Positions 1,330 through 2,878 of a DNA stretch of 21,761 nt are shown piece by piece. Origin of the DNA: an uncultured Pseudomonadaceae bacterium (lineage in GTDB: Bacteria > Pseudomonadota > Gammaproteobacteria > Pseudomonadales > Pseudomonadaceae); NCBI GenBank assembly GCA_947630465.1, contig CANRHT010000008.1, positions 1-21,761 on the forward strand, in the 5' to 3' direction. The notes beneath the pieces are model-generated. The model was given only the letters and a program-made list of their open reading frames with translations. It ran no database searches and had not been told where the DNA came from. Positions within the stretch are counted from its first letter, which is position 1. Each line of letters begins with the position of its first letter. Made by a program: the position numbers and the translations under genes.

Positions 1330-2427
1330 TTACTGATTCAGTTGCGCGACCGCCTGCAATAACATCTGTGCAGTGGCGTCCCAGCCCAAGCAACCATCGG
1401 TAATGGAAACGCCATACTGCAAGTTATCGCAGAGCGCTTGCTGGCCATCCACTAAGTTACTTTCCAACATGACGGCGCGCAAACGGTGCTCGCCAGCAGC
1501 GCGTTGCGCCAAGACAGACTGTAAAACCTGCGGCTGTAACTGCGGATTTTTACCGCTGTTGGCATGACTGCAATCGACCATCAGCGCCGGATCTACATGC
1601 GCTTGAGTTAAGGCCGCGCAGGCTTGTGCGATGCTGTGTGCATCATAGTTTGGCCCGTGATGCCCACCGCGTAACACTAAGTGCGTATCAGGATTACCCT
1701 GAGTGGCCACCAAGGCGGCACGACCTTGAGCATCTAAGCCAAAGTGCTGGTGCGCATGCGCAGCAGAACGCATCGCATCTGTGGCAATACCCACACTGCC
1801 GTCCGTACCGTTTTTAAATCCTACTGGAAAAGCTAAACCACTGACCATCTCGCGGTGAATTTGCGACTCACTGGTACGCGCACCAATCGCCGCCCAGCTC
1901 AGCAAGTCATCAAAGTAGCCCGCCGCCATAGGTTGTAACAGCTCGGTTGCCACCGGTAAATTGAGCTCCAGCATCTGTAGCATCAACTGACGTGAAAGTT
2001 GCAAGCCCTGTGCCATATCCGCACTGCCATCCAGATGTGGATCGTATAACAGCCCTTTCCAGCCCACAGTGGTGCGCGGTTTCTCAATATAAACGCGCAT
2101 CGCCAACAGCATGTGCTCGGATACCTGCTGCGCTAACACCGCTAAGCGCTCGGCGTATTCCAGTGCTTCGTCAATATTGTGAATAGAACAAGGGCCTATC
2201 ACCACCAATAAGCGCGAATCTTCACCCTTTAAGATGGCCCGCACCTGTTCGCGCTGCTGCTGTACCCGTCGCGCCAGCTCAGCTGTGAGCGGCAGTTGCT
2301 GACGTAATTCTTGCGGGCTGGCTAAGACTTGCGTGTGACGTGCGGCCTTAGGCAATGTTGTGATGGCTGCCAGATCCAATGCGCTGTGGCTGTGGTCGAG
2401 AGCAAGAGCTGTATTTAAAGCGTTCAT
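1330..2427 (-). CDS. 3-deoxy-7-phosphoheptulonate (DAHP) synthase, class I (AroF/AroG/AroH family)
   Basis: Catalyses the first step of the shikimate pathway, condensing phosphoenolpyruvate with erythrose 4-phosphate to DAHP. The 365-residue length fits the E. coli AroF/G/H type. Visible motifs include GPCSIH (78-83), EKPRTTVGWKG (115-125), GARTSESQIHREMVSG (182-197), GFKNGTDG (203-210) and DCSHANS (285-291). Candidate metal ligands are Cys80, His288, Glu322 and Asp344. The N-terminal extension is where family members bind the feedback amino acid, but I cannot tell from sequence whether this is the Tyr-, Phe- or Trp-sensitive form. The ATG at 2427 has an AAGGA Shine-Dalgarno five bases upstream. 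Upstream lies a leader peptide and terminator arranged as an aromatic attenuator. Confidence 0.95.
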   Translation of the reverse strand: MNALNTALALDHSHSALDLAAITTLPKAARHTQVLASPQELRQQLPLTAELARRVQQQREQVRAILKGEDSRLLVVIGPCSIHNIDEALEYAERLAVLAQQVSEHMLLAMRVYIEKPRTTVGWKGLLYDPHLDGSADMAQGLQLSRQLMLQMLELNLPVATELLQPMAAGYFDDLLSWAAIGARTSESQIHREMVSGLAFPVGFKNGTDGSVGIATDAMRSAAHAHQHFGLDAQGRAALVATQGNPDTHLVLRGGHHGPNYDAHSIAQACAALTQAHVDPALMVDCSHANSGKNPQLQPQVLQSVLAQRAAGEHRLRAVMLESNLVDGQQALCDNLQYGVSITDGCLGWDATAQMLLQAVAQLNQ

Positions 2428-2464
2428 AATTATCCTTGGCTTAGCGGCTGTACCGCTAGGCGCT

Positions 2465-2604: not shown

Positions 2605-2643
2605 AAAAACAAAAAACCCCGGGTGGGAAGCCAACCGGGGTTT
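2605..2643 (-). terminator. Intrinsic terminator of the aromatic leader (attenuator)
   Basis: On the minus strand a 13-position stem with one mismatch (arms 2631-2643 and 2614-2626) closes a CTTC tetraloop and is followed by a T-rich run (complement of 2605-2616, eleven T in twelve bases). It sits 52 bases after the leader peptide stop and 178 bases before the DAHP synthase start. This is the strongest intrinsic terminator of the window, and it lies upstream of a gene rather than after one. Confidence 0.85.
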
Positions 2644-2694
2644 ATCTAAAGCAGTGGTAGGCGACCCGTTAAAAGAGGCCCACCTGTATGAATA

Positions 2695-2826
2695 TCAGGC
2701 GCGCCTTTGGCTAAACCAATATCCATAAAAATAATACGCTGCAGAGTTATCTAACAAACGCGCACAGGTCAATAACACAGCAAGTGGCTGCGTAACTGAC
2801 ATCAATTTAAGTGCGTGATTTAACAT
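2695..2826 (-). CDS. Aromatic-rich leader peptide (43 aa) of the DAHP synthase attenuator
   Basis: The ATG at 2826 has a GGAGAG Shine-Dalgarno four bases upstream. The frame runs 43 codons to TGA at 2695-2697. Residues 31-38 are Tyr-Tyr-Phe-Tyr-Gly-Tyr-Trp-Phe (bases 2713-2736), that is four Tyr, two Phe and one Trp in eight codons, followed by only five more residues (SQRRA). Such a run just before the stop, in front of a terminator and an aromatic biosynthesis gene, is the mark of a control-codon leader peptide. The peptide probably has no function beyond positioning the ribosome. Basis: directly read; the role is inferred from the trp, phe and his leaders. Confidence 0.8.
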   Translation of the reverse strand: MLNHALKLMSVTQPLAVLLTCARLLDNSAAYYFYGYWFSQRRA

Positions 2827-2849
2827 AGAACTCTCCAAACAGAGCAATT

Positions 2850-2878
2850 AACATACTGCATGCGTATCGCTAGTGCAA
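2850..2878 (-). promoter_or_regulatory. Predicted promoter of the leader and DAHP synthase
   Basis: On the minus strand TTGCAC (2873-2878) and TATGTT (2850-2855) are spaced by 17 bases. Transcription would start near 2843, leaving a short 5' UTR with the leader Shine-Dalgarno. The -35 match is modest. I saw no clear TyrR or TrpR operator. Confidence 0.5.

Follow-up and report, generated by a model that had tools for sequence, protein, structure and literature searches.

The window, that is the whole stretch of 21,761 nucleotides of DNA analysed here, carries on its minus strand aroF, which encodes a type I DAHP synthase, preceded by two short open reading frames (ORFs) with aromatic codons and, between these two, an intrinsic terminator. 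The genes and signals of the locus are as follows:

2850-2878, minus strand: candidate promoter, TTGCAC (2878-2873), 17 bases, TATGTT (2855-2850); 7 of 12 consensus bases
2836-2831, minus strand: Shine-Dalgarno sequence GGAGAG of leader peptide 1, 5-10 bases ahead of the ATG
2826-2695, minus strand: ORF of leader peptide 1, 43 codons plus UGA (stop 2697-2695)
2736-2713, minus strand: control run YYFYGYWF, codons 31-38 of leader peptide 1
2569-2465, minus strand: ORF2, 34 codons (MAMYADYPERFDDLSWRFSNHKLALPHCLRRLTQ), with Shine-Dalgarno sequence AGAGGA upstream; Tyr, Phe and Trp codons
2437-2433, minus strand: Shine-Dalgarno sequence AAGGA of aroF
1330-2427, minus strand: aroF, type I DAHP synthase of 365 aa

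Leader peptide 1 reads MLNHALKLMSVTQPLAVLLTCARLLDNSAAYYFYGYWFSQRRA; a longer form of the same ORF with a TTG start begins at 2847. The original prediction, made from the DNA letters alone, had described a 43-codon ORF with YYFYGYWF at codons 31-38, followed by five codons and the stop, with a good Shine-Dalgarno sequence and a DAHP synthase gene downstream. This is exactly what lies at the locus: GGAGAG precedes the start codon, and the downstream gene product matches TIGR00034 (aroFGH) with an E value of 1.9e-131. A promoter had also been placed just upstream. Its motif is present and conserved, TTGC[AG]C-17-TATGTT being kept in 12 of 12 loci of the same genus, but it is weak (7 of 12 consensus bases), and a consensus promoter scan called no minus-strand site.

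Directly upstream of the leader promoter lies a gene for a rhodanese-domain protein (PF00581; 2885-3478, minus strand). A further type I DAHP synthase of the source genome has no leader of this kind (L132; G000:C3:15528-16505), and a 282-aa protein that shares its Pfam family (G000:C132:3991-4785) is probably KdsA. No match to a type II DAHP synthase was found in 12 of 12 genomes of the window's genus.

Occurrence of the leader and conservation of its aromatic codons

Presence of the leader follows the type of DAHP synthase. Under one fixed rule (five or more aromatic residues within the final 18 codons of an ORF, with Tyr, Phe and Trp all represented) an aromatic leader lies upstream of 82 of the 90 leader-type DAHP synthases of the order, as against 2 of 49 other DAHP synthases; 40 of 1800 (2.2%) and 45 of 980 shuffled upstream regions pass the same rule (2-5%). 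The eight leader-type loci that fail it still have leaders, outside its limits. Nearest relatives of the enzyme were taken as the best 80 of at least 587; L085, for which there was no upstream sequence, was dropped, leaving 79 loci. In 78 of these 79 an upstream ORF has four or more aromatic residues, all three kinds among them, close to its end, by a screen that takes the ORF with the most aromatic kinds and that in L107 and L108 took an ORF other than the leader; the true leader run of both, YYFWQF, contains all three aromatic residues as well. Eleven further leader-type relatives from four families of the order all have a leader (11/11), and the layout recurs in all 10 Acinetobacter loci, with leader and terminator sequences of their own. 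Of 14 loci belonging to neither Pseudomonas nor Acinetobacter, 8 gave no terminator in a strict screen.

A set of 97 distinct leaders was picked by G[YF]WF plus five or more aromatic residues within eight codons; the choice itself fixes Trp and the last Phe, and it somewhat favours the counts for earlier codons. Aromatic codons occupy the three positions ahead of GYWF in 89, 92 and 96 of these leaders. Tyr and Phe codons interchange freely at these three positions, where the aromatic codons are TAT, TAC, TTT and TTC only, bar one TGG at each of two positions. Given the way this set was chosen, the differing leader versions of other lineages are better evidence. Halomonas-type leaders carry the runs YWYWF, FWYGYF and GYGYWF, and Acinetobacter leaders YFYFWQY and YYFWQFR; Tyr, Phe and Trp codons are thus all present in the leaders of separate lineages (Pseudomonas, Halomonas-type, Acinetobacter). 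Within the window's genus the control run changes little (pN/pS 0.27) and the earlier part of the leader much (0.59). The alignments and these ratios bear out the expectation that the aromatic run, the stop and the terminator are conserved while the earlier peptide drifts. Conservation at the codon level also suggests that leader 1 is translated.

As for codon usage at the three positions before GYWF in the 97 leaders, Phe is written TTT 107 times and TTC 40 times, and Tyr TAT 107 times and TAC 21 times; in aroF, TTT is a rare Phe codon (11 of 248). The choice of codons in the control run may tune halting.

Terminator and alternative folds of the leader RNA

Five helices were considered in the leader RNA:

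2687-2727, minus strand: hairpin 1:2 (2727-2715 with 2700-2687), by folding
2677-2705, minus strand: alternative helix 2:3, GGCGCGCCUG (2705-2696) with CAGGUGGGCC (2686-2677)
2656-2684, minus strand: hairpin 3:4, anti-antiterminator (2684-2678 with 2662-2656), by folding
2625-2667, minus strand: proposed antiterminator helix 4:5, GGGUCGCCUACC (2667-2656) with GGUUGGCUUCCC (2636-2625)
2605-2643, minus strand: intrinsic terminator 5:6, stem 2643-2614, U-tract 2616-2605, by folding

None of 200 shuffled sequences folds as well as the leader RNA (z -4.6). The terminator begins 51 bases past the leader 1 stop, its stem being followed by TTTTTTGTTTTT to 2605. A simple consensus terminator scan called none at this locus; the intrinsic terminator with U-tract that had been predicted after the leader stop is nevertheless clear by folding, conserved and covarying.

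For the leader alignment 108 loci were offered, of which four were lost by the terminator pattern and one was without leader; filtering the other 103 at 90% identity left 31. In these 31 sequences the terminator conformer (1:2, 3:4, 5:6) has 95.3% of cells paired, as against at most 57.5% for slid versions, and five pairs with two-sided changes, a number matched by 0 of 500 shuffles; further pair types were not clearly above shuffles (43 of 500 equal them). Four of the five pairs are in the terminator, which has 98.3% of cells paired, and one is in the outer two helices of hairpin 1:2, where the change is found in the window itself. These outer helices have 95-96% of cells paired and the innermost pair 77%; the Tyr-Gly-Tyr-Trp codons fall in arm 1 of this hairpin and the stop codon in arm 2. 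Hairpin 3:4 has 91.7% of cells paired and no two-sided change. For the alternative conformer (2:3 plus 4:5) the paired share is 84.1%, as against at most 59.2% for slid versions (2:3, 82%; 4:5, 86%), with no covariation above shuffles in either helix across the 31 sequences. RNAalifold, run on the leader alignment, predicted the terminator and 3:4, and a different, shorter hairpin instead of 1:2.

The influence of a translating ribosome was modelled by moving a ribosome edge along 28 of the 31 aligned sequences (three were lost by the pattern), with the RNA cut before the 3' arm of the terminator; the values are normalised sums and can exceed 1. With the edge at -3 to +12 nt of the Trp codon, the mean value for 2:3 is 0.84-0.97, and that for 3:4 goes down to 0.26-0.33. 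Helix 2:3 then drops to 0.60 (+15) and 0.04 (+21), and edges between +21 and +30 give 3:4 a value of 0.96-1.00. The window is like the mean: it switches at -6, 2:3 is dominant from -6 to +12 nt of the Trp codon, and the reversal falls between +15 and +21. Helix 4:5 goes up in the folding model when the ribosome edge matches the aromatic run. The leader thus has the parts, their conservation and, in a thermodynamic model, a folding switch.

Ribosome footprints being approximate, we assumed an edge about 13 nt ahead of the A site, from which it follows that the switching range is the aromatic run, with the last Phe codon of the control run at its edge. These folds suggest that halting on the aromatic run up to Trp would free the antiterminator and that a ribosome near the stop would permit termination. 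With a larger footprint at the stop, or with edges at or beyond +36, the folding model prefers 4:5 over 3:4, which argues against a long ribosome pause at the leader stop. Since the terminator is stronger than helix 4:5, any antitermination would need to rely on kinetics.

The same structure bears on the number of amino acids sensed. Arm 1 (UAUGGAUAUUGG) holds Tyr and Trp codons that structure alone would conserve, the switching range stops at about the Trp codon, and UAU, UGG and UUU of YWF are near-invariant (94, 97 and 96 of 97, UGG by the selection motif). The leader might then effectively sense one or two amino acids, Tyr and Phe first, with Trp and the last Phe serving the RNA hairpin. 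We regard this as rather unlikely, since Halomonas-type and Acinetobacter leaders differ in sequence yet keep all three residues (78 of 79 loci by the richest-ORF screen).

Relation to the catalogued sRNA P15

From the control codons to the terminator the leader coincides with an Rfam family:

2616-2737, minus strand: match to Rfam RF00627 (P15), 82.9 bits, above the cut-off of 70

Rfam lists RF00627 as 'Pseudomonas sRNA P15', type Gene, in an entry line without a leader peptide. The original prediction does not mention this match. Of 198 genomes sampled from the family, 156 have a P15 match, which exceeds the cut-off in 153. Twelve of the 42 P15-negative genomes were examined. Eleven are without this DAHP synthase, their only one sharing 49-52% identity with that of the window; the remaining genome, from the window's genus, matches the window's enzyme in part (residues 144-363). 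The aroF gene of P. aeruginosa is presumably PA1750. A word search of the main text of a P. aeruginosa 3'-end map (PMC8297930) returned neither PA1750 nor P15.

Could P15 be a free trans-acting sRNA, the ORF and its aromatic codons being incidental? It is filed as an sRNA gene, and in PMC2375449 it is counted among the sRNAs that Livny et al. detected in P. aeruginosa; a terminated leader, however, would appear as an sRNA in any case. P15 is moreover tied to one gene, as 11 of the 12 examined P15-negative genomes are without this DAHP synthase, and both the codon-level conservation of the aromatic residues and the occurrence of the same arrangement with unrelated sequence in Acinetobacter fit a leader. 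A free sRNA is accordingly very improbable in our judgement, and P15 is likely the terminated leader RNA of a known gene.

A second short ORF between terminator and aroF

ORF2, between the terminator and aroF, is absent from the original prediction and is new here. By a WRF motif or its Acinetobacter form it was found in 74 of the 79 nearest-relative loci (best 80 of at least 587, minus L085), i.e. in 52 of 52 Pseudomonas-type, 12 of 16 Halomonas-type and 10 of 10 Acinetobacter loci as grouped by names in the sequence records; four Salinicola loci and L111 yielded none by the WRF motif. Of 110 distinct WRF-type copies, 102 have a Shine-Dalgarno-like core. A Tyr-rich stretch lies before WRF, whose Arg codon is CGA in 105 and whose Phe codon is UUU in 109. 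This UGG-CGA-UUU core is almost fixed in relatives; the ORF2 of the window has CGC, not CGA. In aroF of loci L032-L096, CGA accounts for 42 of the 1246 Arg codons, and TTT for 11 of the 248 Phe codons.

In the window's genus ORF2 is very probably translated, as judged by a pN/pS of 0.13 over nearly its whole length (10 distinct sequences of 12). The 50-codon type has a pN/pS of 0.56, with 0.33 for codons 1-18 and 0.72 for codons 19-50 (33 distinct of 35). ORF2 had no Pfam match, and its 85 relatives by protein search were, where named, hypothetical or uncharacterised, with no functional name seen. After WRFS, the copies of L040-L104 (P. fluorescens type, Halomonas type) have RS, SDR or SGR, and GG similarly placed across families; this conserved part is perhaps an RNA element. 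The pattern was not seen in P. stutzeri-like and P. citronellolis-like loci. Downstream of ORF2 lies one further feature:

2439-2461, minus strand: hairpin between the ORF2 stop and the aroF Shine-Dalgarno sequence, by folding

RNAalifold gave no consensus structure for the ORF2 region or the spacer behind it, the sequences being very different and the alignments poor (the spacer alignment comprised 38 of 46 clusters, four Acinetobacter clusters and L090, L095, L098 and L116 being left out); per-sequence tests were therefore used instead. In 27 of the 45 clusters tested the spacer hairpin is more stable than in shuffles (p<0.05), the remaining one of the 46 having too short a spacer; the window has p=0.063. 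It stands in the same place, with different sequence, in Pseudomonas-type and Acinetobacter loci.

ORF2 may encode a small functional protein or be a simple coupling ORF, unrelated to amino acid sensing. The low pN/pS over nearly the whole length in the window's genus and the close spacing of ORF2 stop, hairpin and aroF Shine-Dalgarno sequence speak for this. Over the wider set, however, the common part is just the Tyr-rich stretch and WRF, the length varies from 29 to 50 codons in Pseudomonas-type loci, codons 19-50 of the 50-codon type are less constrained than codons 1-18, and a protein function leaves the near-fixed CGA and UUU, rare in aroF, unexplained. We put this possibility at well below even.

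Alternatively, ORF2 might be a translational attenuator, in which base pairing between the Trp-Arg-Phe segment and the start region of aroF blocks translation until a ribosome stalls on the aromatic codons. In 13 of 46 clusters, three of them Acinetobacter, the complementarity between the Trp segment and the aroF start is better than with shuffled starts (p<0.05); the combined p is 2e-6 if the clusters are independent, which they are not. The pairing is strong in some clusters and uses different bases in Acinetobacter. It is absent in the window (p=0.40); among seven clusters from the window's genus, one has it (L172, p=0.03; L032, p=0.97), and swapped aroF start regions are about as good overall (p<0.05 in 3 of 46, combined p 0.13). 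A general pairing was therefore rejected and is retained as lineage-limited only. When the Trp codon is masked in the folding model, the aroF start becomes more open, with a gain above 1 kcal/mol in 17 of 46 clusters and of 3.7 kcal/mol in the window. A ribosome on the Trp segment opens the start by a mean of 0.94 kcal/mol, but a median of just 0.26, as compared with 0.05 kcal/mol for a ribosome at ORF2 initiation (p 0.035, 27 of 46 clusters); at the ORF2 stop a ribosome closes it by 1.1 kcal/mol on average. Neighbouring ribosome positions, however, open the start as the Trp codon does. The pairing, masking, spacer-hairpin and neighbouring-position tests cover the ORF2 loci apart from 12, mostly Halomonas-type, to which no aroF start was assigned. 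We put a translational attenuator, too, at well below even, and a second, translational lock on aroF via ORF2 is plausible, if weakly supported.

A pairing of the ORF2 core with attenuator arm 4 (GGGUCGCC) was also considered. It is good by eye in some species, and it was rejected on an informal look at the alignment because the middle base of the arm varies and the core does not.

Discussion

Leader-peptide attenuation is a textbook mechanism, and we consider it highly probable that ribosome-mediated transcription attenuation operates at the locus described here and adjusts transcription of aroF, at the entry step of the shikimate pathway, to the charging of Tyr-, Phe- and Trp-tRNA. With all three tRNAs charged, the ribosome would reach the UGA and 3:4 would stay formed, upon which terminator 5:6 would stop transcription near 2605 and leave a short RNA, P15. 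If any one tRNA is short, the ribosome would halt on the YYFYGYW run and cover arm 1; arm 2 would then pair with 3, arm 4 would be free for 5, and with 4:5 formed RNA polymerase would continue into ORF2 and aroF. The scheme supposes ribosome halting, tRNA sensing, antitermination and an equal weight of the three amino acids. Of the mixed Tyr/Phe/Trp leader reading combined charging that had been proposed for this locus, the parts and their conservation stand; the sensing of each tRNA is what we infer from them.

The original prediction held that attenuators usually respond to one amino acid. This has to be corrected, as mixed-residue attenuators are not unusual: the ilvGMEDA leader has branched-chain control codons, and the thrABC leader those for Thr and Ile. 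Both share control codons for several amino acids with the present leader, but these are not aromatic. The E. coli his leader is a six-segment attenuator, in which AB, CD and EF (the terminator) compete with BC and DE, with seven His codons; the chain of hairpins is similar here, and the two differ in the His codons, the gene and the sequence. Two short ORFs occur in the mgtCBR leader as well, but there with other signals and another gene; here both ORFs have aromatic codons.

Aromatic attenuators are on record, too. In Corynebacterium glutamicum, a Phe-Tyr-Phe leader (aroR) precedes the DAHP synthase gene aroF (PMC4046766, PMC11802643). As here, aromatic codons lie before a DAHP synthase gene; unlike here, the available text gives Phe-Tyr-Phe only, names no Trp and mentions no second ORF, and the organism is an actinobacterium. 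PMC2659441 lists an aroF attenuator sensing Tyr-tRNA for Shewanella, citing an E. coli paper. The E. coli trpL, pheL and pheST leaders are described as ribosome-mediated attenuators that respond to aromatic amino acids (PMC11802643), and attenuation of trpE and trpGDC in P. putida appears as a title in the reference list of PMC8297930. These leaders respond to one amino acid each and control terminal branches or a tRNA synthetase, not the entry step.

The original prediction left it open whether this exact leader had been described. In part it is on record: its 3' portion is RF00627, and a Phe-Tyr-Phe attenuator of a DAHP synthase is known from C. glutamicum. The peptide strings of leader 1 and ORF2 were not found in the literature searched, outside of which lie the likeliest papers, on P15 and on gamma-proteobacterial aromatic attenuators. 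New with respect to that literature is a leader with all three aromatic amino acids on the entry enzyme, present in several families, catalogued as an sRNA and with a second aromatic ORF in series.

A double lock, in which leader 1 gates completion of the transcript and ORF2, on the completed transcript only, sets aroF translation via its aromatic codons and a slow Trp-CGA-UUU core, is a reading to which we would give somewhat less than an even chance. The pair of ORFs would then predate the split of Pseudomonas, Acinetobacter and Halomonas relatives, the sequences having changed since.

The first shikimate step answers to three end products, for which E. coli employs several enzymes and the TyrR and TrpR repressors. 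If the proposed attenuator is correct, one leader would add three signals by construction, since a shortage of any one amino acid would open aroF, and it would do so in a large group of well-studied bacteria. The catalogued 'sRNA' P15 gains a likely role as terminated leader, and ORF2 offers a test case of one biosynthetic gene gated twice by the same signal.
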